Source: a virus
Length of the DNA stretch: 26,120 nt
Reading direction: 5' to 3' (one strand)
Virus record (IMG/VR): IMGVR_UViG_3300028298_000028
Location: 1-26,120 of that record
Positions 9,383 through 24,787 of the stretch are shown in pieces. The notes under the pieces are model-generated. The model worked only from the letters and a program-made list of their open reading frames with translations. It was not told the origin of the DNA and made no database searches. The position numbers and the translations under genes were made by a program. How positions within the stretch are numbered: position 1 is the first letter of the stretch; each line of letters opens with the position of its first letter.

Positions 9383-9739
9383 ATGAAGATGGTATCGCTC
9401 AAGCTCCCTAAGAAATCCAAGAACGAATTAAAAGAGGGGCCTATCTCTCCGTTGTCAAATGAGTACCCCTACGATTCCAGACTAACCATTCGCGATGAAC
9501 CCTTGAAGAAAATGACGGAGATATACGACAAAGTCAATGTGGGCGATATCGTCATAATCAAGGCAAAAGCTAAAGTAATATCCGTATCGGAAAGCAAATC
9601 ACAATCCCTTGGTAACGAAAAAAAACATGAGGAGTGCCGCATAGAACTTCAACTCACGGATATCGGTTGCGAGATGGATGATGACGGCGCGATGGAAGAA
9701 GGGTTTGCCGAGGGTTCAGAGGACAAAAAGGAGGAATGA
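9383..9739 (+). CDS. Capsid staple-like protein
   Basis: Start set by GGAGG 9 bases before the ATG at 9383; upstream in-frame ATGs lack a site. The 118-aa product begins MKMVSLKLPKKSKNELK, then YPYDSRLTIRDEPLKKM, then VNVGDIVIIKAKAKVISVSE and RIELQLTDIGCEMDDD. This matches the pattern I know for phage capsid staple proteins (MKxxSLKL start, YPYxxRL, KVGDxxxxxAxAxVxSVS, LQI). Such proteins clamp the capsid lattice. The acidic tail (EEGFAEGSEDKKEE) is an extension. It overlaps the portal gene as ATGA. Identity rests on recalled motifs. Confidence 0.7.
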   Translation: MKMVSLKLPKKSKNELKEGPISPLSNEYPYDSRLTIRDEPLKKMTEIYDKVNVGDIVIIKAKAKVISVSESKSQSLGNEKKHEECRIELQLTDIGCEMDDDGAMEEGFAEGSEDKKEE

Positions 9740-11856
9740 TTTTGCCGGATGTAATCTCAACATGGATTAAGTGTCAGTACGACCGAGCGGACAAAAACCG
9801 CTATGATTTAAATAAAAAATGGGAAGATAACCGCTCCAATTTCCAAGGCAACCTGTTTTCAGAGAACGACGATACGGGAACGAACACGAAATGGAAGAAG
9901 GACGAGGGCGAAGGCTGGCGGTCAAAGACACATCCCGGCGCAACACACCAGAAAGTAATTTCAGCCCTTGCCATTGTTCTGGATACAATGCTTTCAGGCG
10001 GCTCAATTCCCTTCATGCTCAAGCCAAGCCCGTTCAACAAGCATCGCGTGCGTACCGCCGAACCTATTGATCCCAAGGCGGTGGAGAAGGACGTCGAGTT
10101 TATGTCTGACCTGATTGACCAGCAATTTTCCGACTGCAAGGCCGAACTTCACTTCACAAAGAACTGTCTATCGGCGGCATTGTACGCGTGGACTTATGCG
10201 AAGATGGTGGTAAAGCCCATAAAGCGGTCTGGATACGAGCCTGTAACGCTTGGCGAGATTGAAGGAATTACCGACTGGAACCGAATCAATACTCCGCAGG
10301 AATGGCGCAAATGGGAGGAAAGTTTCAATGCACCGCATTGGCAGTATATCCCGGTGTGGGATATCTTCCGCGATTGGGAGACTGACGATCTTACTGAATG
10401 TGGGTTTATTATTCACAGGCAGATTGTGAACAACTGGTGGTTGAGACAGAAAAAGAGCAAGCCATTTTTCATTGACGATAATCTCGACAAGGCAATCGCT
10501 CGCGTCAAGAACGACAAAACCAAGTCCAGTTCTTCTGTGAACAGCAACGAGGATACGTCCAATATGTCTCCGGCCTTACGTAACTTCGTAAATTACCGGG
10601 TGAACACAAGACAGTGTCTTGAGTATTGGGGCCGGATACCACGCGACATCGTGGAAGAGTTCGAAAAGGATAACAGCGGTCTGAATACTCGCGGAATCGT
10701 TGGCGATGGCTCTGACGATGGTGATGAAGTTGAGGTGTGCGCCATATCCGTGGAGGGCGAGGATACAATTCGCTTCGTTCGCACCACGCCGGACATGAGA
10801 CCATTCTCGCAGGCCAAGTGGGAAGATATCGGGGACGAGTTTATGCCTCGCGGCGTTGCGGATAACTGTCAGGAAATGCAGACCGTAATACAGGGGACTA
10901 TCCGAGGCATTGAGGACAACGTCAAACTTGCAGGCAATGTCATTCTGGCAATCAAGGAACGTCTGGTAAAGAATATGCCGAAGTCATTCAAGCCGGGAAC
11001 TCGCGTTCTGCTTGCCGAGGAATGCCAGAAGGCTGGCGATGCCATCCAGCAGATTACCATTGCGGATATGTCCAGCGGACTCATGGGCTTGCTCAATCTT
11101 GCCAAAACGCAAATGGAAGAAGACAGCATGGTTCCCAAGATTGCACAGGGTATGGTTGAGGCAGTTGGACAGACGGCGCGTGAGGTAAGCATCCGGCAGG
11201 CACAGGCTTTAAAGTATCTTGGCATGGCAATACGAAACATTGACACCGGGCTGATAGAGCCAATGGTTAAGATGTTCTACGATTACAACATGGAAGATCC
11301 GGAAGTCAAACAGGGCAAGGGCAACTATCTCATTCAGGCACTGGGCTTTTCCAGTTTCCAGAACAAGAACGAACGGCTAACGAAACTCATGCAGGCTCTT
11401 ACGCTGGCATTGGCACAGCCAAAGCTGGAGGCCGAGACGAAGATTCGTCAATGTTGGGAAGAGATTATCAAGGCAATGGACGTTGACCCGGATATGTTCC
11501 TGAAAACTCAGGAAGAGAAGGACAAAGAGCAGGAAGAGGCCATGAATAACCCGGCACTGCAACTTGAGATGGAAGGGCAGAAAGCCGTTGTCGAAAAGGA
11601 CAAGGCCGCCGCGCTCAAGGATAGAACAGATGCGGCACTGAATCTGGCACAGGCAAAGGATAAGACCGTCGATACCGACGCCAAGACTGAACTGCTTAGT
11701 CTGGAGTTAGGCCAACCCGGACAGGCAGATGTGCCGGCCGACGTTGCCACACAGCCGCCTGAACAGCCGGAGCCGGGCATAGATGCCGGAATCGGGCCAG
11801 TTCCGCAGGAAGGCGCGGAAGTACCTGCAGAACAACCAAACGAGGTGATCGTGTAG
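9736..11856 (+). CDS. Portal protein
   Basis: A 706-aa protein between terminase and capsid genes, of the size of podovirus-type portals. It forms the ring through which DNA enters and leaves the head and docks TerL. The core has aromatic-rich segments (HWQYIPVWDIFRDWETDD near residue 200) and a long helical region around residues 440-520; the C-terminus has a Lys/Ala/Glu helix (about 590-660) and a Pro/Glu tail with QPPEQPEPG. The ATG at 9736 overlaps the previous stop but is 1 base after GGAGG; TTG at 9742 has 7-base spacing and may be the real start. Family assigned mainly by context and layout. Confidence 0.85.
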   Translation: MILPDVISTWIKCQYDRADKNRYDLNKKWEDNRSNFQGNLFSENDDTGTNTKWKKDEGEGWRSKTHPGATHQKVISALAIVLDTMLSGGSIPFMLKPSPFNKHRVRTAEPIDPKAVEKDVEFMSDLIDQQFSDCKAELHFTKNCLSAALYAWTYAKMVVKPIKRSGYEPVTLGEIEGITDWNRINTPQEWRKWEESFNAPHWQYIPVWDIFRDWETDDLTECGFIIHRQIVNNWWLRQKKSKPFFIDDNLDKAIARVKNDKTKSSSSVNSNEDTSNMSPALRNFVNYRVNTRQCLEYWGRIPRDIVEEFEKDNSGLNTRGIVGDGSDDGDEVEVCAISVEGEDTIRFVRTTPDMRPFSQAKWEDIGDEFMPRGVADNCQEMQTVIQGTIRGIEDNVKLAGNVILAIKERLVKNMPKSFKPGTRVLLAEECQKAGDAIQQITIADMSSGLMGLLNLAKTQMEEDSMVPKIAQGMVEAVGQTAREVSIRQAQALKYLGMAIRNIDTGLIEPMVKMFYDYNMEDPEVKQGKGNYLIQALGFSSFQNKNERLTKLMQALTLALAQPKLEAETKIRQCWEEIIKAMDVDPDMFLKTQEEKDKEQEEAMNNPALQLEMEGQKAVVEKDKAAALKDRTDAALNLAQAKDKTVDTDAKTELLSLELGQPGQADVPADVATQPPEQPEPGIDAGIGPVPQEGAEVPAEQPNEVIV

Positions 11857-11857
11857 T

Positions 11858-12133
11858 ATGAACCTGGAACGAGAATATGGGCTAGACGAGGGAGAGGTAA
11901 ATTCGCTGGCGCAGATAGAAGATTCGCCGCCTGCGCTGGCAATTCTCAAAGTTGCCTTGGCGATACACAAGAGGGAGACGAAGAAAATCATGGATGGCCT
12001 GACGGGAGTTAACGAAGCTGAGCCGCGCAATGATTATCGTCATTCTATAGGTGCGGCAAGTACAGCCGCAAAAATATTAGGGCTTCGAAATGAAGCTCTC
12101 GAACAACAAAACATAACAAACAGCAGGAGGTAA
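11858..12133 (+). CDS. Hypothetical protein after portal, 91 aa
   Basis: A helical, charged protein (MNLEREYGLDEGEVNSLAQI..., PPALAILKVALAIHKRETKK) starting 1 base after the portal stop and ending 2 bases before the next ATG. GAGGTGAT in the portal end lies about 10 bases upstream. The position between portal and head genes suggests a small head accessory protein; no motif confirms it. Confidence 0.65.
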   Translation: MNLEREYGLDEGEVNSLAQIEDSPPALAILKVALAIHKRETKKIMDGLTGVNEAEPRNDYRHSIGAASTAAKILGLRNEALEQQNITNSRR

Positions 12134-12135
12134 GG

Positions 12136-13119
12136 ATGAAGACGAGAATAATGTCAGTATTTGCCAGCATGATCTTCGCAGGCGTTTTGATCGCTGGAGA
12201 CGTTCCCGAAAATATGAATTTCCGGGGCGACGTGAACTTCGACAAGAGTTGCAACATCAAGATAAACGGAACAAAGGTGACGGCCACTGCCGCTGAAATT
12301 AATCAGCTTGCAGAGACCGTTCTTTCGGTCGAGACAATGAAGATTGAGAGAGTTGAGTCAACAACTGGTGGCTTCAGTGGTATGCCGCTGGCGGCGTCAC
12401 CCAATCAGTCATATTTTCTTCTGGAAGATTTCTATCACTACATGACGGACACCAACATTCCTGCAGTACGTGTAAACGCATGGAAATATGCTGGTGACAG
12501 CACCGACAAGACAGGAACGACTATTGCTATTGGAGCAGGCGGAATTTTGAAATACATTCCTACTGGTACGGCGAACGACGAGCAGTACATTCAGTACACG
12601 CCTCTGGCTACTGAAGGTGCGTTTGGAATTGCGTCGAACAGCGAAAAGAGAATGTGGTTTGAAGCGCGGATCGCCGGGCCACATACGAATGCACCCAGCT
12701 CAACGTTTATCGGCTTGGCGACCAATGGGTCGTCTGCGGCTGACTTTATGGTTGATGATTCAGGCCGGATGACCACCAATGGCGCGTTCATGGGCTTCTG
12801 GTGCAACTCTTTGAATTCGTCCAACAGGTACTGGAACTTTATCGCTCACAAACCGCTTGCAACCTATGCGGCTACTCCAATAACGACCAACGGCGTATTA
12901 AACACTTCGCTTGGAACTTATAAGCGGCTTGGTTTCGCTTATGATGGTGTGAGAACTTTGACGGCATACGGCGATGGCACATCCATCGGATCGTTTACGG
13001 TAAATAATGCAGAGTATCCTCTGAATGTTCAAATGATGCCCGTTATGGCAGTGAAGACATTGGCCACATTCGTTCCTACGAATTACATAGACTTCATTTA
13101 TGTGAACGAGGAACGGTAA
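12136..13119 (+). CDS. Exported head-fibre-like protein with signal peptide
   Basis: A 327-aa protein with GGAGG 5 bases before ATG. Residues 1-21 (MKTRIMSVFASMIFAGVLIAG) form a typical Sec signal peptide with cleavage likely near residue 20. Then comes INGTKVTATAAEINQLAE, a motif I associate with phage fibre or head-fibre proteins. The rest (residues about 85-327) is Gly/Thr/Asn-rich beta structure ending FIYVNEER and resembles a concanavalin/LamG-like sandwich. It lies between portal and scaffold, where virion proteins normally have no export signal. It could be a virion fibre, or an exported surface protein made during infection. Confidence 0.75.
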   Translation: MKTRIMSVFASMIFAGVLIAGDVPENMNFRGDVNFDKSCNIKINGTKVTATAAEINQLAETVLSVETMKIERVESTTGGFSGMPLAASPNQSYFLLEDFYHYMTDTNIPAVRVNAWKYAGDSTDKTGTTIAIGAGGILKYIPTGTANDEQYIQYTPLATEGAFGIASNSEKRMWFEARIAGPHTNAPSSTFIGLATNGSSAADFMVDDSGRMTTNGAFMGFWCNSLNSSNRYWNFIAHKPLATYAATPITTNGVLNTSLGTYKRLGFAYDGVRTLTAYGDGTSIGSFTVNNAEYPLNVQMMPVMAVKTLATFVPTNYIDFIYVNEER

Positions 13120-13158
13120 ACGTTCGAGCGTGAGCAATAAACAACAAGGAGAATGAGC

Positions 13159-13434
13159 ATGAAGAAGGATGAATCAGTGAAAGCACCTGAAGCGAAAGCA
13201 CCGGAAGCACCAGCGCAGGCTGATACTCCCAAAGTGCCAGAGCCCGTAAAAGCACCGGAAGCACCAGCGCAGGCTGATACTCCCAAAGTGCCAGAGCCCG
13301 TAAAAGCACCTGAAGCGAAGAAAGTAATCGCGCCCGATGCGATGACCATATTGACCATGAAGTTTAATGCCCTTTGCAAGTTGCAGGGTATTTCGTTCAA
13401 AGAGGACGCCGGACGGTTTATCGCGGTTCGATAA
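13159..13434 (+). CDS. Pro/Ala repeat protein, 91 aa
   Basis: Start set at 13159 because GGAG is 7 bases upstream; the ATG at 13153 is only 1 base from it. Residues 1-53 are Ala/Pro/Glu/Lys-rich and contain two exact copies of an 18-residue unit (APEAPAQADTPKVPEPVK). The C-terminal 38 residues (VIAPDAMTILTMKFNALC...) look like a small folded domain. The repeat half is probably an extended linker or stalk. Its place before the scaffold suggests a small head protein. Confidence 0.7.
   Translation: MKKDESVKAPEAKAPEAPAQADTPKVPEPVKAPEAPAQADTPKVPEPVKAPEAKKVIAPDAMTILTMKFNALCKLQGISFKEDAGRFIAVR
13198..13305 (+). repeat. Perfect 54-bp tandem duplication
   Basis: Two identical 54-base units (13198-13251 and 13252-13305) encode 18 residues each inside the Pro/Ala repeat protein. 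No base differs between copies and partial units flank them (GCACCTGAAGCG), so the duplication is recent or kept even by recombination. Confidence 0.95.
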
Positions 13435-13479: not shown

Positions 13480-14598
13480 ATGACAACTGATGCAGATGAG
13501 CCAGTGGATCAAGAGTCACCGGAACAGGATGCCGCTTTCGATGAAGAGGCCGCCAAGCCGGGTCTGGAATCTGATGGGGCTGTAAAGCTTCCTGATGATG
13601 ACGAGAAGAAGGACAAGAAGTCCGAGAAACCTGCGCCAAGCAAGGCAAAGGAACCGGAAGAGAATGACGACAACAAGGAAGATAAAGAGGACAAGCCAGC
13701 GGACAAGAAAGAAGAATCCGAGTCTGGTGAAGAGGATATTCCAAAGACTGCGGCTGAAAAGGCAGAAGCCGCCGCAAAGTCACTGGAAGAGGGCAATGGC
13801 GATGATCGGCCCGAAAGCGTCCTTGATATTCTTCCTGATTCCTACGCATGGGCGAGGGATGTTGTCGGAACAGACAAGTTCAAGTCTTTCGTTCTCAAAC
13901 AACCGAAGGCAGTGCAGAAGGCGGCAACATCGGGCGATCTTGATGACTCCATGTACGTTCTTGATCTTTACAAGGCGGCACAGGATGGAAACAGCGAAGT
14001 CAAACCTCTAAGTTCTGAAGCCAAGGCAACCGTAAGTTCTATTGCCAAGAAATTTGGTGATACGAAGTTCACGGCCCCGGATGGTTCTGAAAAAACCATC
14101 AAGCAAATTGCCGCTGAATACGGCAACGAGGAACTCCTTGAGGCCATTGGAGCGATGGCGCAGGCCATGAACGCTGAAAGCCTCAAGAACATGAAGCCTG
14201 TAGAGAAGAACGAGACTGTAGACAAACTTCAGGCACGCATTGACAGCATGGCGGCAGAGCAGGCGTACTGGGAGGAAGTCCTTGACGCTCATCCGGACGC
14301 CAAACGGCTGGCAAAGAAAGGCAAGATTGGTGAATGGGTTAAGACGCAGTCTCCGTCAGTACAAAGATTGTATCGCTCAAATAATCCTGAACATTCCATT
14401 CTTGTTATCGATGCCTACAAGGAGTCCGTTGCGAAGGCCGTCGAGACCGAGGCAGACGAAAACTCCAAGGGCAAGAAGCGAAATATTGATTCACTTCATT
14501 CTGAATCTTTAACAGGAAAGAAGGTAGTGAAACATAGCAAGAGTGGAAAAACACCCGAAGAAGAAGAGGACGACGGGTTTAACGAAGGAGCGAAATAG
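13480..14598 (+). CDS. Capsid scaffolding protein
   Basis: A 372-aa protein with GGAG 7 bases before ATG. The first 105 residues are extremely acidic and Lys-rich (DDDEKKDKKSEKP, EENDDNKEDKEDKP) and likely disordered. The middle is helical (IKQIAAEYGNEELLEAIGAM, residues about 207-226), followed by a coiled-coil-like KLQARIDSMAAEQAYWEEVL and HPDAKRLAKKGKIGEWV. A basic then acidic tail ends it. This layout, and the position two genes before the capsid gene, fits scaffolds of N4-gp56-type phages, which guide capsid assembly and then leave. Identity is from architecture and context, not from a conserved motif. Confidence 0.8.
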   Translation: MTTDADEPVDQESPEQDAAFDEEAAKPGLESDGAVKLPDDDEKKDKKSEKPAPSKAKEPEENDDNKEDKEDKPADKKEESESGEEDIPKTAAEKAEAAAKSLEEGNGDDRPESVLDILPDSYAWARDVVGTDKFKSFVLKQPKAVQKAATSGDLDDSMYVLDLYKAAQDGNSEVKPLSSEAKATVSSIAKKFGDTKFTAPDGSEKTIKQIAAEYGNEELLEAIGAMAQAMNAESLKNMKPVEKNETVDKLQARIDSMAAEQAYWEEVLDAHPDAKRLAKKGKIGEWVKTQSPSVQRLYRSNNPEHSILVIDAYKESVAKAVETEADENSKGKKRNIDSLHSESLTGKKVVKHSKSGKTPEEEEDDGFNEGAK

Positions 14599-14877: not shown

Positions 14878-15879
14878 ATGAACACAACGACAAGCATAGG
14901 ATACAGGACAAACGGATTCGCCGTTGCGAGACTCCTGAAACGCGCACAGGCAATTATGACGCTGGAACGTTTCGGCCAAGTTGATCCGCAGGGCAAGAAT
15001 AAGTCAACGACTCGGAAATTCAGAAGGGTTGAGGCTCTGCCTGCGGCTATTGCGCCCATCGCTGAAGGCGTGGCCCCGGCTGGTCAGACACTTCAGGTAA
15101 CCAACATTTCGGTTACACTGGAACAGTACGCTGATGTCGTCCCGTTCACGGACGTTATCGAGGACACTATCGAGGATAATACCCTTGATGATATGACCAA
15201 GCTGGTCTCTCAACAGGCGGCTGAAACCAAGGAAACGATTCGCTTCAATGCTCTCAAGGCAGGAACGAACGTGTTCTACGGCGGCACAGGCACGACCAGA
15301 GCAACGGTAAATGGAACGATTACACGCGCACTCCTGCGTAAGGTGTTCCGCTCCATGAAACGCAATCGCGCACAGTTCATCAGCGAGATTGTTGCCGCTT
15401 CCGCGAAAATCGGAACGCAGGCAGTCAGTGCGGCTTACTTCGCGGTAGGTCATACCGATCTGGACGCCGACCTGAACGACGTTACCGGGTATAAGAGAGT
15501 CGAGCATTATTCAGACTCCAACAAAGCCCTTCCAAACGAAGTTGGTTCTGCGGAAAACTTCCGTTTCATATTGAGCGATCTGTTCAGCCCGTGGCTGTCC
15601 GCTGGTGCGTCTGGTTCGACATACCTTCAGGCCGGAACGACCGGAACGGGTGCTTGCGACGTTTACCCGTTGCTGGCGTTTGGAACCGATGCGTACGCCA
15701 TTGTCCCTCTTCAGGGCAAAGGCGCAGTTAAAATCTATGTCGTGAATCCCACGGCTAGTGCCGCTGACCCGGTTGCTCAGAAGGGTACCGTTGGTTGGAA
15801 GATGTATGATGCATGCGTCATACTGAATGATAACTGGATGGCGCGTATGGAAGTCGGCGCATCGCAGACACCTTCGTAA
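14878..15879 (+). CDS. Major capsid protein, N4-gp56 family
   Basis: A 333-aa protein with AGGAGG 9 bases before ATG. Residues 79-137 (VTLEQYADVVPFTDVIEDT, NTLDDMTKLVSQQAAETKET, LKAGTNVFYGG) carry the signature I know for N4-gp56-type major capsid proteins. The C-terminal part (KRNRAQFISEIVAASAKIGT..., AYFAVGHTDLDADL, GTVGWKMYDACVILNDNWMARMEV) also fits an HK97-fold capsid subunit. It forms the icosahedral shell. It follows the scaffold and Com-like genes. The long leader (14798-14877) begins with nine A residues and is free of ORFs. Confidence 0.93.
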   Translation: MNTTTSIGYRTNGFAVARLLKRAQAIMTLERFGQVDPQGKNKSTTRKFRRVEALPAAIAPIAEGVAPAGQTLQVTNISVTLEQYADVVPFTDVIEDTIEDNTLDDMTKLVSQQAAETKETIRFNALKAGTNVFYGGTGTTRATVNGTITRALLRKVFRSMKRNRAQFISEIVAASAKIGTQAVSAAYFAVGHTDLDADLNDVTGYKRVEHYSDSNKALPNEVGSAENFRFILSDLFSPWLSAGASGSTYLQAGTTGTGACDVYPLLAFGTDAYAIVPLQGKGAVKIYVVNPTASAADPVAQKGTVGWKMYDACVILNDNWMARMEVGASQTPS

Positions 15880-15929: not shown

Positions 15930-16643
15930 ATGAAAAGTTTGAAACGAGTAATGGGAACATTTCTTGGTTCCGGGGCGGCAGTATATCTCTGCACTGGAGC
16001 CATTCCTATCTACGCCAAGATAACCAACATCACGAACACTACCAACCCGAATTTCATCGAGTGGTCGCGTCACATGATTCAGGGTTATCTGGGCTATGGA
16101 GGAATACTCATGACCGGGTCAACGGGTGTTTTTACCAAGGCGACTACGGCAGGCGTGTTCCCCTACGAAGGTGGAGACCTGATGACATCAACCAACCAGA
16201 CAAGTCTCGTGGCAGGCCACGCGGTGTACCTTGGATGGGATGAGAAAGACTATCGCTCCGACTATACGTACGGTGCGGTAACGGAAGGCACTCCGATAAA
16301 CACATGGACAAACGATGGAACGACCACAGGTCATTTCAACAGTAATCTCGTTGCCAGTGGTTACCGTATTGGTGTTGGCTCCATAATCAGGATCAAGGAA
16401 AACTCCACTGGTCTTGTAAAGGAAGCCTCCATCATAACATGCGCTGGTGCTACTACCACAACGTCGGCATATGTGACCTTGAGCCGCACAATCGGCACAG
16501 GAAGCATAACGTTCATTGGCGGTATGTACACTCTAATGCCCATCGCGTTGGGAAAGACGACCCCGGCAGGTCTGTGCGATAAGGAAGTTACGTTCAATGT
16601 CCATGATGAAGTCCAAGTTTTTGACTTCCAGATGGAAGCGTAA
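15930..16643 (+). CDS. Head decoration-like structural protein, copy 1
   Basis: A 237-aa protein with GGAGG upstream of ATG. It begins MKSLKRVMGTFLGSGAAVYLC and continues TGAIPIYAKITNITN, which resembles phage structural proteins with a GTxxGTGA...GFIPDYVKIxN start found after N4-gp56-type capsid genes. The middle has GGDLMTSTNQTSLVAGHAVY then LGWDEKDYRSDY; the end is beta-rich (IGTGSITFIGGMYTLMPIALG). It is probably exposed on the capsid. The next gene is a same-length paralogue with conserved blocks throughout (TTTGHFN, GSIIRIKENSTGLVKEASI, LGKTTPAG). Confidence 0.8.
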   Translation: MKSLKRVMGTFLGSGAAVYLCTGAIPIYAKITNITNTTNPNFIEWSRHMIQGYLGYGGILMTGSTGVFTKATTAGVFPYEGGDLMTSTNQTSLVAGHAVYLGWDEKDYRSDYTYGAVTEGTPINTWTNDGTTTGHFNSNLVASGYRIGVGSIIRIKENSTGLVKEASIITCAGATTTTSAYVTLSRTIGTGSITFIGGMYTLMPIALGKTTPAGLCDKEVTFNVHDEVQVFDFQMEA

Positions 16644-16667
16644 TTGGTTGTTTGAAAATTAATGGGT

Positions 16668-16687
16668 GGCAGGGTTCATCCCCTGCC
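16668..16687 (+). promoter_or_regulatory. Intergenic stem-loop between paralogues
   Basis: GGCAGGG and CCCTGCC pair perfectly (7 bp) around a 6-base loop. It lies after copy 1 of the decoration-like protein, 8 bases before the next ribosome-binding site; no U-run follows. A similar GCAGG...CCTGC hairpin follows copy 2, so it was probably duplicated with the gene. It may slow RNA decay or tune readthrough. Confidence 0.65.
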
Positions 16688-16708
16688 GCTCAATTAAGGA
16701 GGTTCAAA

Positions 16709-17422
16709 ATGAAGGAACTCAAACGAGTTACAGGATGTTTCAAAGGCACAGGCGCAACAGTGTATCTATGCGTTGGAGCAATTCCTGTATATACAAAAAT
16801 TCAAAATCTCACTCATGCCACGTATCCGCTCTTCATTGAGTGGTACCAGCCCATGATAAAGTATTCTGGTTCTTATGGCGGCATCGCCATGATTAACGAC
16901 ACTGGAGTCTTTACCTATCTGACTACTGATGGTTTTGAGATTTATGAAGGTGGCGATTTGCTTACGTCTGTAAACCAGACCAGTGTTGCTTACGGAGAAG
17001 GCGTATACCTTGGATGGGATGATAAGGATTATCGTGCTGATTCAAATTACGGAACCAATGGGGCCGCAATTAATAAGTACACGCAGGATGCTACAACCAC
17101 CGGGCATTTCAATGCCGACGGAGTTGCATCCGGATGCAGGATTGCAGTTGGTTCGATTGTGAGAATTAAGGAGAATGCAAGTGGTCTTGTTAAGGAAGCG
17201 TCCATAACGGCTCTTACGTCTACTCCTACTTTCACGACTGCTACGTATGTAACGTTGAGTCGAGCAATCGGAACTGGCGATGTGATCTTTATCAGCGGTG
17301 CATATAGTCTTTGCCCTATTCCTCTGGGCAAGGTTACTCCTGCTGGTGTGAAAATAACTGATACAGCGGTAAATATTGACGCGGCATCAGTTGTATTTGA
17401 GATGGATATCGAAAGTCCGTAG
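16709..17422 (+). CDS. Head decoration-like structural protein, copy 2
   Basis: Also 237 aa; the start follows GGAGG by 6 bases (an upstream in-frame ATG at 16652 is in the gap and unlikely). It matches copy 1 along its whole length: MKELKRVTGCFKGTGATVYL, CVGAIPVYTKIQNLTH, GGDLLTSVNQTS, YLGWDDKDYRAD, GSIVRIKENASGLVKEASI and LGKVTPAG. The C-terminal tail differs most, as do loops near residues 45-75. Tandem duplication followed by divergence is clear. The two could form mixed lattices or sit at different capsid positions. Confidence 0.8.
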   Translation: MKELKRVTGCFKGTGATVYLCVGAIPVYTKIQNLTHATYPLFIEWYQPMIKYSGSYGGIAMINDTGVFTYLTTDGFEIYEGGDLLTSVNQTSVAYGEGVYLGWDDKDYRADSNYGTNGAAINKYTQDATTTGHFNADGVASGCRIAVGSIVRIKENASGLVKEASITALTSTPTFTTATYVTLSRAIGTGDVIFISGAYSLCPIPLGKVTPAGVKITDTAVNIDAASVVFEMDIESP

Positions 17423-20007: not shown

Positions 20008-22623
20008 ATGATGAGAAAAATAGTCATTTTTTTGGCATTGACAGTGACATCGTTTTCTGTCTCTTTCGGTGCGGCCACAAATGTCATGCCAGAGAAGGCC
20101 GCAGTCATGGCAAACTACACAAATTATTCAATTGTGTGGCCCACAAATACATCTCAATTTCTGAACTCAAACGATATCGCAACCATCACGCTGGCAACCG
20201 CCATAAGCAATGCTCTGAATGTAAAACTAACGAACGCAACCAATAATATCTACGGGTATGTTGCAAGCTCCAACGATATGACCAACACGCAAATACGTGT
20301 GGGCCGCATTGAGGGCCGGACAAGCACATGGAATCAGGCTTCAATCGACGCCACAGCCTTCACAAACTTCTGGTATGGCAGTTCAGAGTCCGGAGCCGCA
20401 AATTGGGTGCTGTTGACCAATGGAATGATCTCGTGGAATGCGGCTTCGAGCAGTTCCATCGCCACGACCAATGAATTGTGGTGGCTGGCTTACGGCAAAA
20501 CCAACCAAGTGGGCTTGAGGGCGGTAGATACGAACACGCTTTCCATCCGCAACTCAGATGATTCTGATTACGGTAATTTGATTGTGAGCAACCTGACGGT
20601 AATGGGAACACAGAACACCTTTAACGTCAACGTGATTGATGTAGAGACGAACAGGATCAAGCTCAATTCAAACATTTCCGCTGGTGCGCCTATTCTTGAC
20701 GCCTACATTTACAATCGCCGGGGCGACGAGAGTAACGCCATGATCAAGTGGAACGAGACAACTGATCGCTGGTACTTCGGCATTGAAGGAGGCGACGTTC
20801 AGGACACAACGCTATGGGTATCAAACCACAATACCTATTTCGGGAGTATGTTGAGTTACACACAGGGATGGAACAAGGCTTCAAACGATGCTTATCTGGC
20901 AACCAACTGGATCGCAACAAACACGCTCTGGACAAATGTGCTCAATATTCAGGCTCAGACGGGATCATGGATACAGGCTCGGACGGATTCCACAGCCTTT
21001 ACAAACTGGATATATCCGGCTGGCGGCACAAATTACTGGAACTGTCCGTCGAACATTATCAATGCCGCGTTTACCAACATCACGCCCGGCGCGAACATTA
21101 CTATTGTAACCAATGGACGCAATCTTACGGTGGTAGGAACCATAAGCGGTGATGTAGTGACCAACGGAGGCAATACCACAATAAGACTTACTCAGCGCGG
21201 AACCAATTACCAGCTTGTTGGTGAAGCTCAAATCGGATGGACGAACGTTGTAGGAACATCGACTTGGGTAAGTGTAGGTCTCAACTTCCAGAACGGAACG
21301 AATACCTCGTGGCGCAATGACCACGGAACGAATATTCTTGAAGTGCCGTCAGCAGGGCTTGGCGATGTAATCGCCGCGAACTATAACACCTTTGCCAACA
21401 GTAACGCTTTCAACGGCAACGTCCGAATTCATGGAACGAATATTGAGACTAAACTTGAGGCGGCTATTCTGACGAACGGATACCATGAAACTACTATCAA
21501 TACGCTTGTCACTTCCAACGGAACCCAGCAAACGCAGATCACCAATAACACGCAACTGACTATAGGACACACGAATCTTATGGTCGCAGATGCGCCACAT
21601 GGGATGACAACGGTCGCGCTTGTGCCGTCTAATTCAGTGTTCTATGCAGACGGACGTATTTCCGGAGACAGAAGCGTGTGGGGTTCTACATTAAGCTTGG
21701 ACGATATATCATCAACGGCCTATGGATCTTTAATAAGAGGAAGCAAAACAGATGGAGGAGCCGGAACAGGAACAGGAATATATTTAATAGGGCCGTATTC
21801 AGAAGGATGCGAACAGGCTGGAAGTTGTCAGGGTTATGTTTCAGTTCTTACAAATTCTTACGCAACTATGCAGAGATTATCAGTGTCTGTATCGGGGCGT
21901 GCCGTAATAGGGTCTTATACGCATGCGGCCCAACAATACGGAACCGTTAGATCAGGAGCAACGGCCACAAATACAGGAAGCGGATCAATACAGATTTTTG
22001 ATTTATATACCAATGAACTTGCTTTAATGACGGGAGTTGGATCAATAGGCTTGGGGGCCGCAACAGTTACAAACGACGAAAGCCTGGTAGCTGGAGACGG
22101 CAATGTTTCTCATGGCATTGCCACTGTAACCGCAAATGGTTTCTATTCGACCAATGGTGCAGTCGGTTTTGTCGGCAACGGCTCCGGACTGACCAACATC
22201 CCCTACGCCACTACAGCCAACACAGCAAGCAACGTAATCAACGCCGTAAGTTACTCTACCAACTCTGGCACAGCCAACACAGCAAGTAATATGAGCGTTT
22301 CTCACGCCACGTATATCGTGCCTTATGGAGTTACGCAGACAATCTCCATGGCTTACTATGATCAGACCTTGCTTGACATCACGAATGATTGCGTATTTTA
22401 CATAGACACCACAGCATCAACAACGATGAGCCACAATGTACGGTTTAATTGGGTTGCGAGTACGAACGCCATCACATGGTTCACAAATTGTTTCTTCGGT
22501 ACAAATCTTCAATATGGGCTTGGCAGTGGCTTGATGCGAAACAAACGTGGTGCAGGCGAGATGTCGTCAGCCATATACGATCAACCAGCATACTCAATAA
22601 AGGGGACATGGTGGCCGCTATGA
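20008..22623 (+). CDS. Long fibre-like protein with signal peptide
   Basis: An 871-aa protein. The start at 20008 has AGGAG 5 bases upstream, and an upstream in-frame ATG is rejected for lack of one. Residues 1-22 (MMRKIVIFLALTVTSFSVSF plus GA) form a Sec signal peptide. The body is Asn/Thr-rich. A repeat W(N/I)QA-x-x-D-x-x-A-x-TN(F/W) appears three times (20322-20373, 20862-20910, 20961-21010). Near the end FVGNGSGLTNIPY and repeated TANTASN units are typical of trimeric phage fibres, followed by a closing beta domain ending KGTWWPL. It probably recognises the host surface. The section about 21640-22110 has different codon choice. Export of a fibre is unusual. Confidence 0.82.
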   Translation: MMRKIVIFLALTVTSFSVSFGAATNVMPEKAAVMANYTNYSIVWPTNTSQFLNSNDIATITLATAISNALNVKLTNATNNIYGYVASSNDMTNTQIRVGRIEGRTSTWNQASIDATAFTNFWYGSSESGAANWVLLTNGMISWNAASSSSIATTNELWWLAYGKTNQVGLRAVDTNTLSIRNSDDSDYGNLIVSNLTVMGTQNTFNVNVIDVETNRIKLNSNISAGAPILDAYIYNRRGDESNAMIKWNETTDRWYFGIEGGDVQDTTLWVSNHNTYFGSMLSYTQGWNKASNDAYLATNWIATNTLWTNVLNIQAQTGSWIQARTDSTAFTNWIYPAGGTNYWNCPSNIINAAFTNITPGANITIVTNGRNLTVVGTISGDVVTNGGNTTIRLTQRGTNYQLVGEAQIGWTNVVGTSTWVSVGLNFQNGTNTSWRNDHGTNILEVPSAGLGDVIAANYNTFANSNAFNGNVRIHGTNIETKLEAAILTNGYHETTINTLVTSNGTQQTQITNNTQLTIGHTNLMVADAPHGMTTVALVPSNSVFYADGRISGDRSVWGSTLSLDDISSTAYGSLIRGSKTDGGAGTGTGIYLIGPYSEGCEQAGSCQGYVSVLTNSYATMQRLSVSVSGRAVIGSYTHAAQQYGTVRSGATATNTGSGSIQIFDLYTNELALMTGVGSIGLGAATVTNDESLVAGDGNVSHGIATVTANGFYSTNGAVGFVGNGSGLTNIPYATTANTASNVINAVSYSTNSGTANTASNMSVSHATYIVPYGVTQTISMAYYDQTLLDITNDCVFYIDTTASTTMSHNVRFNWVASTNAITWFTNCFFGTNLQYGLGSGLMRNKRGAGEMSSAIYDQPAYSIKGTWWPL

Positions 22624-23081
22624 AAGACTTATACGCAAATAAATTTACAGGTGAGAAGAATATACCGGAAGAGAAGGTGCCAACAACGATTGGCAATACT
22701 CAGTTTGTCATAAGCAATCCACCACCGCTGTTTTACATCTGCGGCTGGCGAAAGCAGATTGACATTGAACTTGCACCAGTAGGGTTCAGGGTAGCTGACT
22801 ATGCCGTTGAGGATATGGACGGCAAGAATTGTCGTTTGAGAATTGCGGCGGCAGTGAATATTGCTGACGAGAAAGCTCAGTCCGAGATTGCGGCTCTGAC
22901 GTATGCAGAGACTATCGCACAGGCGAAGGTTGACGCTGACGTCAAGGCTGGCGATCCGGCGAACTGGTCAAAGGAAACCCGTACTGTGATTGCCCTATTA
23001 CGTGAAATAGGCAAGGTTGAGATGGATGACAAGACATGGAATGATTTACTGAAAGCAACATGGGGTAAACTTGCGAAATGA
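22620..23081 (+). CDS. Fibre-associated or chaperone-like protein, 153 aa
   Basis: Starts in an ATGA overlap with the fibre stop (GGTGG is 5 bases upstream); another ATG at 22608 is possible. The first half (FTGEKNIPEEKVPTTIGNTQ, NPPPLFYICGWRKQIDIELA) is beta-rich; the second is helical (ADEKAQSEIAALTYAETIAQ, TRTVIALLREIGKVEMDDKT). Short proteins coupled to fibre genes are often fibre-assembly chaperones or tip proteins; that is only an inference here. No signal peptide is seen, unlike both neighbours. Confidence 0.65.
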   Translation: MKDLYANKFTGEKNIPEEKVPTTIGNTQFVISNPPPLFYICGWRKQIDIELAPVGFRVADYAVEDMDGKNCRLRIAAAVNIADEKAQSEIAALTYAETIAQAKVDADVKAGDPANWSKETRTVIALLREIGKVEMDDKTWNDLLKATWGKLAK

Positions 23082-24193
23082 AACGTAACCTTATAACTCG
23101 CCAATGCAGTTTTATAAGTAATTTCTTTCTGTGCATTGGAACCGCCACAGTTATTTGTGGCTTCGTATCCCTCGCCTACGCTGGCCGGATGCAGGATTTG
23201 CTCATGGCAAGCAGGGCAAGCATGGTAGAGGCAACTGGAACACCGGTTGCCAAATTCAAGTATCCGCAATGGTCTACGGCATCAATGTCGGCTTCCAACG
23301 CTCCTGCGCCAGCAATGGTTTACGCCAGTTCAGTATATAGCTCCAGTTATTTGCCTTGGTACGCTTTCGATGCGTCGTTATTTGAAGCTTATACAGGATT
23401 AAGGTGGGCTTCCGAAGTCGGATCGCCGCCGGAATGGATTTTGTACGACTGTGGTTCTGGCAATAGCAATGTTGCCAAGACCCTCGTAATTAACAATCCG
23501 AGATTTGGAAATAATGATACTTTTATTTTTCAGGGTAGTAATGATTCAACTAACTGGACGAACCTCGCAGCGACGAATACGCTTGCGAATTATTCTGTTC
23601 ATTATTTTTACAACAGTTATGCAACTACCAACTTTGACTATTACAGATATTTTCGAGTTAACTTTACGGTTATGCCCGACACTTTGGTATCCGTCTGTTT
23701 TATGAAGATAACCTCGGCAGTTCAAATCAGGCCATCAATGACATCCTTTAACACGCCAGCTCCCTATGTTGTGACGCAGAGTTCGTTAAGCGCTAACGGA
23801 ACGAATCAGGGCGGCCATTGCGCCTTTGACAACTACGAACTGGATGATGTCAATTATTATCACAGGTGGATTGCCACAAACGAGTTCCCCGCATGGGTAA
23901 AGATAGACATGGGCAGTAACGTGCTTGTTAATGGCTTCGGAATTGATGCGGCAAATGGATGTCCAAGTAATTTCATAATATCTGCGTCCATCAACGACTC
24001 CGACTATACAACCTTGGTCACAACTAACCTCGCTAATTCGCAGTATGCCATGCCCGGATGCACTTTATACCAAGACATTGTAACGACGAGCACGACTGCG
24101 TATCGGTTTTACAAATTTACCGCAACCGATACATGGACAGGTGCGGCGGCAGAACTCTGGGAAATACTACTTTGGCAGTATGAGGTTGAATAA
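23078..24193 (+). CDS. Exported protein with two discoidin (F5/8C)-like domains
   Basis: A 371-aa protein starting in an ATGA overlap. A hydrophobic segment (FFLCIGTATVICGFVSLAYA, about residues 16-35) after a basic start is a signal peptide with cleavage probably after AYA. Two discoidin-like units follow: the first (about 60-210) has YSSSYLPWYAFDAS, WASEVGSPPEWILYDCG and FIFQGSNDSTNWTNL; the second (about 225-368) has HCAFDNYELDD, FPAWVKIDMGSN and a matching ending. Such domains bind carbohydrate or lipid head groups. It could be a host-surface binding protein on the virion or on the infected cell. Base composition is AT-richer than the head genes. Confidence 0.78.
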   Translation: MKRNLITRQCSFISNFFLCIGTATVICGFVSLAYAGRMQDLLMASRASMVEATGTPVAKFKYPQWSTASMSASNAPAPAMVYASSVYSSSYLPWYAFDASLFEAYTGLRWASEVGSPPEWILYDCGSGNSNVAKTLVINNPRFGNNDTFIFQGSNDSTNWTNLAATNTLANYSVHYFYNSYATTNFDYYRYFRVNFTVMPDTLVSVCFMKITSAVQIRPSMTSFNTPAPYVVTQSSLSANGTNQGGHCAFDNYELDDVNYYHRWIATNEFPAWVKIDMGSNVLVNGFGIDAANGCPSNFIISASINDSDYTTLVTTNLANSQYAMPGCTLYQDIVTTSTTAYRFYKFTATDTWTGAAAELWEILLWQYEVE

Positions 24194-24202
24194 AGGAGCA
24201 AA

Positions 24203-24787
24203 ATGAAAACACGTCATCTATGCGATGAAGAACGTGAAGAAATAGCGGTGGGCAAAATCACTTGCCTGATCGTTCTAGCAGTTTTCGTACTTTCCTTTTT
24301 CGTATGGGGGTGCAAGACGCCTGACCTGCCGGACATTGACATACCCGACATCATCACGCCAACGACGACGACAACTACGTTGCCACCTGTAACGACAACC
24401 ACCCAGCCGCCTGAAGTCGAAGATAGCGACGAGAATAACATTGTCCCTGAACAACAGTATCCACCGCGTTTTGACACCATAGGCGCAACAGAATTACAGT
24501 TCAAAGGCGGTCTGAAATACAATGCCGAAAACTCACGCAAGAAGCTGAAAATCATCTGGCCGTCAAAGTACATTAACAAAATAGCTTGGTGTGTAGCATT
24601 TGGCGATGGGTATCAGGAAGTAATTAAGCGAGCGTTCCCGAATGAAGGCGGCCCACGCGCAAGGTTTTATGGTAGTCTGATTTCCAAATTACCACAGGAA
24701 ATAATTTGCAGGGCGCATATCGTGGAAGATGGAGTAGCAAAGGATATATGGGTGCGGATACCGGACACAAAGAGGACATGGCAATGA
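24203..24787 (+). CDS. Lipoprotein with Thr/Pro-rich linker, 194 aa
   Basis: GGAG lies 5 bases before ATG. After an 18-residue charged start, a hydrophobic segment ends LSFFVWGC, with Cys37 as a likely lipidation site (Trp at -2 is unusual). Residues 41-70 are Asp/Ile then Thr/Pro-rich (ITPTTTTTTLPPVTTTTQPP), a spacer typical of envelope lipoproteins. The C-terminal domain (about 90-194, IKRAFPNEGGPRARFYGSL) is unknown. It could be a surface-exclusion protein, an outer spanin or a host-modifying lipoprotein. The stop overlaps the next gene as ATGA. Confidence 0.7.
   Translation: MKTRHLCDEEREEIAVGKITCLIVLAVFVLSFFVWGCKTPDLPDIDIPDIITPTTTTTTLPPVTTTTQPPEVEDSDENNIVPEQQYPPRFDTIGATELQFKGGLKYNAENSRKKLKIIWPSKYINKIAWCVAFGDGYQEVIKRAFPNEGGPRARFYGSLISKLPQEIICRAHIVEDGVAKDIWVRIPDTKRTWQ

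Follow-up and report, generated by a model that had tools for sequence, protein, structure and literature searches.

A signal-bearing fibre-type protein encoded among tailed-phage head genes, and a fibre-ligase gene pair in its relatives

Textbook accounts describe the assembly of tailed phages as a wholly cytoplasmic process. Why, then, should a gene located among head genes encode a protein that begins with a predicted Sec signal peptide? This question was raised by the initial annotation of a 26,120-base virus record (a fragment, referred to here at its full length as the window), which considered two possibilities: either parts of the virion pass through the periplasm, or the phage places a protein on the surface of its host.

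The slot fibre gene and its neighbours in the window

The features of the window on which the analysis draws are as follows:

9736-11856, + strand: portal (head-tail adaptor; PHROG match to phrog_332, 1.4e-32)
11858-12133, + strand: small ORF of 91 residues, kept in the slot of relatives (ORF list, relatives)
12125-12131, + strand: Shine-Dalgarno (SD) sequence AGGAGGT of the fibre gene (read from the sequence)
12136-13119, + strand: head-slot fibre-type protein with signal, 327 residues (ORF, alignments, relatives)
12136-12195, + strand: Sec signal peptide, residues 1-20, predicted cleavage A20/G21 (rule-based; feature kept in relatives)
12220-12303, + strand: conserved fibre-type module from F29..D36 to VTATAAEIN, residues 29-56 (alignments)
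12376-13116, + strand: variable C-terminal part, residues 81-327 (weak relative in L104)
13480-14598, + strand: acidic scaffold-like protein (position, composition, homologues before the capsid gene)
14878-15879, + strand: major head protein (PHROG match to phrog_1357, 9.5e-55)
20008-22623, + strand: long fibre of 871 residues, signal-bearing, with a segment matching cyanophage tail fibres
23078-24193, + strand: protein with a signal-like N-terminus and F5/8 type C (discoidin) domains; weak SD
24203-24787, + strand: lipoprotein-like gene (FVWG/C), its product having a Thr/Pro-rich linker; close to where the structural block ends

The genes are arranged in the order portal, 91-residue ORF, fibre, 93-residue Pro/Ala-rich ORF, scaffold-like protein and major head protein, i.e. 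the fibre gene occupies the portal-scaffold interval (the slot), both in the window and in relatives. As regards this location, given already in the initial annotation, the portal is secured by its PHROG match, while the scaffold-like protein is assigned by composition, position and conservation, with no family model matching it. A small protein with perfect KAPEAPAQADTPKVPEPV repeats is encoded at 13153-13434, between the fibre and the scaffold. Downstream of the capsid gene, 15930-16643 and 16652-17422 encode tandem paralogues of a conserved post-capsid protein (GTGAxVYLCxGAIP), mostly present as one copy in relatives; the signal called on this protein (FNGTGA type; 15930 in the window) had a low rule score and was treated as a false positive.

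Signals were called with a von Heijne-style rule that considers charge, hydrophobic core and the -3/-1 site. The N-terminus of the slot fibre reads MKTRIMSVFASMIFAGVLIA/GDVPENMNFRGDVNFDKSCNIKINGTKVTATAAEIN..., where the slash marks the predicted cleavage, with GD right after it; it combines two positive charges with an uncharged hydrophobic core of 15 residues and the small-residue site A20/G21, in agreement with the clear Sec signal originally described. Behind the signal lies the fibre-type module, NFRGDVNFD...INGTKVTATAAEIN, in which the VTATAAEIN motif, also recognized at the outset, occupies residues 48-56 (12277-12303). Translation starts with ATG according to the sequence and ORF reading, and the next in-frame ATG after the signal is codon 27 (12214). 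A wrong start codon was rejected, since a strong SD precedes the first ATG and none was read at codon 27. An assembly artefact was likewise rejected, because dozens of contigs show the same architecture.

Pfam and PHROG searches with the window protein gave no family match, including to any known head-fibre family, and its designation as fibre-type refers to the module only. Searches by tblastn of 50,697 phage records returned no useful match to the whole protein or its N-terminal part, and only a weak match to its C-terminal part; a search of viral contigs with the window fibre itself found nothing. The predicted structure had a mean pLDDT of 42.

The long fibre encoded at 20008 was initially noted to share the signal, and the feature was therefore considered not to be a one-off. 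This proved an understatement: the long fibre gene has the SD sequence AAAGGAG and a signal as good as that of the slot fibre, and in the relatives described below, downstream fibre-type genes often have signals too. A segment of the long fibre is 36-49% identical to annotated cyanophage tail fibres (best E 4e-8). The protein encoded at 23078 matches a PHROG named tail protein.

Conservation of the signal among relatives

Relatives were collected via the capsid protein and not via the fibre. In the first six of them with the region covered (L002-L007), the slot protein consists of a signal and the module, with the consensus F-x-G-x-V-x-F-D ... G-T-x-V-T-A-T-A-A-x-L-N or a close variant, followed by C-terminal sequences that differ in content and length. 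In the wider set of slot proteins the VTATAAELN motif itself is found in only a part. A signal is carried by 29 of 38 slot proteins (including two near-duplicate pairs, and with a manual reading of the starts in L002, L027 and L037), compared with 9 of 160 head-protein controls (portal 3/43, capsid 6/82, scaffold 0/35), a difference with a Fisher p of ~3e-19 when relatedness is ignored. Directly before the module, a good cleavage site (AxA or similar) is present in most relatives; in one (L045) the same module is preceded by a lipoprotein signal (LFTG/C). The signal sequences barely align, but their physical features are kept, as expected under selection for export.

On the capsid tree the signal-bearing state covers most of one deep clade and requires nine changes, five of them forced by well-supported branches, with gain and loss being indistinguishable. 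Nine relatives have a slot protein lacking a signal and others have no slot protein; export is therefore not needed for such phages in general. No slot protein was found in the distant-capsid phages vB_Pun_Y3, StenR_269 and Rollin or in the metagenome-assembled ctsTn925. Signals on the slot protein and on downstream fibres tend to occur together (9/11 versus 4/14, hand-curated; p 0.015 with phylogeny ignored), a result that is suggestive only.

A capsid scan of genomes, performed in search of hosts, yielded one 3-kb contig in a deltaproteobacterial MAG, whose slot protein is signal-less; 395 genomes of the same phylum provided no informative neighbourhood and no paired fibre of the type described in the next section. 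In two relatives the portal gene is immediately followed by a putative gene for a GIY-YIG-like homing endonuclease (L027:6177-6797 and L028:5396-6016); their capsids are identical, and their slot fibres differ behind an identical signal.

A signal-bearing fibre gene paired with a Wzy_C ligase gene

The slot of the window contains no ligase gene. In several relatives with a portal and capsid of the window type (L047, L037/L108 and L032/L113), the slot fibre gene is followed, before the scaffold gene, by a gene for a multi-pass membrane protein of the Wzy_C (PF04932, WaaL/PglL) superfamily. The L032 enzyme scores above the Pfam cut-off, and those slot ligases that score below it or are undetected align with this enzyme along their whole length.

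When viral contigs were searched with the alignment of slot ligases alone, 14 distinct loci were obtained, a good number of them in other phages. The pair is located directly after phrog_1005 capsid genes in L107 and L109, directly after phrog_371 capsid genes in L111 and L118 (weak capsid matches), and after a phrog_334 capsid gene, with one gene between, in L115. Thus, together with the window type, it stands beside at least four capsid families. Upstream DNA could be read at 13 of these loci, and at every one of them the gene before the ligase bears a signal; as a rule it overlaps the ligase gene by about 29-32 bases. A cut locus (L105) keeps the same fibre C-terminal domain. One further pair (L123) was reached through the fibre domain only, and another (L054/L056) came from a scan for membrane proteins (Wzy_C match with E 5e-19). 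In the latter case the gene directly before the Wzy_C gene (L054:4730-7282, and in L056) encodes an 850-residue tail-region protein with the signal PSYA/QQ, which resembles a tail or stabilisation protein and has no family match.

When all routes are combined, the preceding gene carries a signal in 15 of 15 ligase loci; these loci, of which the first three served as search seeds, are not independent of each other, but against a signal-like background of 16.5% of all genes in these phages the count is far from chance. The cassette of a signal-bearing fibre-type gene and a Wzy_C gene is found at the following loci:

L047, L054, L107-L113, L115-L118, L121, L123: signal-bearing fibre-type gene followed by Wzy_C gene

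The PF04932 domain exceeds the Pfam cut-off in L032, L054, L107, L109, L110, L111, L112, L116 and L118, falls below it in several enzymes, and was not detected in L037/L108, L115 and L121. With this domain and its multiple membrane spans, the partner gene belongs to the WaaL/PglL group. The HX10G element, placed in the periplasm in WaaL and PglO (PMC1976384), is present in 17 of 17 partner enzymes, and RX3L is not consistently present.

Within the collected set, the C-terminal domain of the paired fibres occurs only beside a ligase. The model of the L108 paired fibre, of fair quality (78), shows a beta sandwich resembling carbohydrate-binding modules, with low TM-scores to the query of about 0.3-0.5. 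Searches of the 50,697 phage records (tblastn) with the paired fibre and with the ligase, and of PDB sequences with the ligase, found nothing. At two of the loci with a phrog_1005 capsid, consecutive signal-bearing genes, including one for a 473-residue fibre-type protein, follow the ligase (L107:7022-8391, L109:7100-10054). The contig of L037 encodes, between portal and slot fibre, a pair of small proteins whose N-termini are Tat-like (NRREFIKAAG and DRRTFIKILG; L108:4163-5268).

Export, particle membership and alternative explanations

Three observations taken together support export of the slot fibre well: the signal is kept over a deep clade, a lipoprotein signal has replaced it in one case, and relatives combine the gene with one for an enzyme of a family that has its active site in the periplasm. 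The signal, its conservation, the virion-type module and this pairing are all seen in sequence; export itself is a prediction, and one that we consider very probable. Of the two possibilities considered initially, the virion part is favoured over the host-surface protein; membership of the slot fibre in the particle, with passage through the periplasm, we judge to be an evenly balanced proposition.

What favours a virion part is the company that the module keeps elsewhere. In two unrelated phages (L095 and L099) it forms part of short, signal-less proteins whose genes lie soon after a capsid gene, the match to the window protein being a short motif only, and in a phage genome from spring water (L104) a signal-less, remote relative of the C-terminal half, weakly matching, is encoded directly after the capsid gene. 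Moreover, the signal-bearing long fibre of the window carries a tail-fibre segment. The main competing explanation is that the protein is exported but never enters the particle, acting instead as a late host-envelope protein that might mask receptors, block superinfection or keep progeny off debris, a role like that of the T5 lipoprotein Llp; its Wzy_C partner would then modify host glycans, as in seroconverting phages. An envelope protein needs a signal, one relative even has a lipobox, and O-antigen alteration by phage genes is well established. On the other hand, many phages have the gene in their head block and others directly after capsid genes, the module occurs beside capsid genes without any signal, and the ligase goes together with a particular fibre domain, an association that remodelling of the surface would not call for. 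We regard the envelope role as a real but lesser possibility.

Two further explanations were considered. The hydrophobic N-terminus might be an uncleaved anchor that keeps proheads at the inner membrane during assembly, an idea suggested by the location of the gene between portal and scaffold and by the proheads of T4, which start at the membrane. It appears unlikely in view of the cleavage site before the module in most relatives, of the long tail-fibre genes that share the signal and play no part in prohead initiation, and of the pairing with a periplasmic enzyme, which requires the mature part to be outside the cytoplasm. Less likely still, and in our opinion improbable, is that the signal is a look-alike, reflecting a later translation start or a stretch needed for folding or trimerisation in the cytoplasm. 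The rule does fire on ~6% of head proteins and on the proportion of all genes given above, but the SD sequence indicates the first ATG and not codon 27, 29 divergent slot proteins share the architecture, a lipobox variant exists, other fibre genes of the same genomes have signals, and the coupling to a periplasmic enzyme holds at 15/15 readable loci.

Returning to the exported virion part, we infer the following course of events. The window gene product would be an exported head-associated fibre or decoration protein, whose first 20 residues direct it to the host Sec system and are then cut off by signal peptidase, so that the mature protein, residing in the periplasm, would begin a few residues before the module F-x-G-x-V-x-F ... 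G-T-x-V-T-A-T-A-A-E-L-N. The module is likely to be the particle-binding end, and the variable remainder the outer part. Filling of the heads takes place in the cytoplasm, so the fibre would most likely join the particle only at lysis, once the inner membrane is breached; we know of no route in any tailed phage by which a periplasmic protein reaches filled heads. In some relatives, the fibre may receive a host lipid-linked glycan in the periplasm, transferred by the phage WaaL/PglL-type ligase.

Parts of this picture have precedents: Sec signals in filamentous phages, head fibres without signals and WaaL/PglL enzymes of hosts are already known. The phi29 protein gp8.5 is a dispensable head fibre (PMC9965433). 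Like the slot fibre, proteins of this type are optional, variable and fibre-type, and are encoded beside capsid genes. In contrast, gp8.5 is not known to have a signal peptide, and no sequence match emerged in the present searches. The short VTATAAEIN proteins of L095 and L099 share the module, followed by a small beta-rich part, and a place beside the capsid gene, but they lack a signal and accompany other capsid families. Structural proteins made with Sec signals are represented by the coat proteins of filamentous phages (M13 g3p and g8p; PMC8310372). These phages, however, assemble in the membrane and are extruded, whereas the window belongs to a tailed phage with a DNA-packaging head. Export to the host envelope is typical of the T5 lipoprotein Llp and other phage lipoproteins, to which the lipobox of L045 can be compared; Llp differs in being small and encoded outside the head operon, and we know of no fibre module in it.

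The partner gene resembles the O-oligosaccharyltransferases PglL, PilO and WaaL in its PF04932 domain, multiple membrane spans and HX10G element, and differs in being a putative ligase coupled to a phage fibre gene and absent from the window. The capsid glycosyltransferases of mycobacteriophages are cytoplasmic. Mycobacteriophages with glycosylated capsids encode enzymes thought to add sugar to particle proteins (PMC11256854). Those enzymes are glycosyltransferases, whereas here a periplasmic ligase family is combined with an exported candidate substrate. In the open-access papers searched, we found no account of signal-bearing head-slot fibres in tailed phages, nor of the fibre-ligase gene pair, and this two-gene cassette is possibly the more important finding.

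A broader proposal, which we put forward as tentative and rather doubtful, is that several tailed-phage lineages finish their particles outside the cytoplasm, adding Sec-exported head and tail fibres, part of them glycosylated in the periplasm by the cassette ligase, to filled heads at lysis. If this is true, some virions would gain periplasm-matured or host-glycan-bearing parts at their exit from the cell, which would bear on the attachment of such phages, their escape from defence and their avoidance of debris. Current annotation would easily mistake the genes concerned for those of host-derived secreted proteins and O-antigen ligases.
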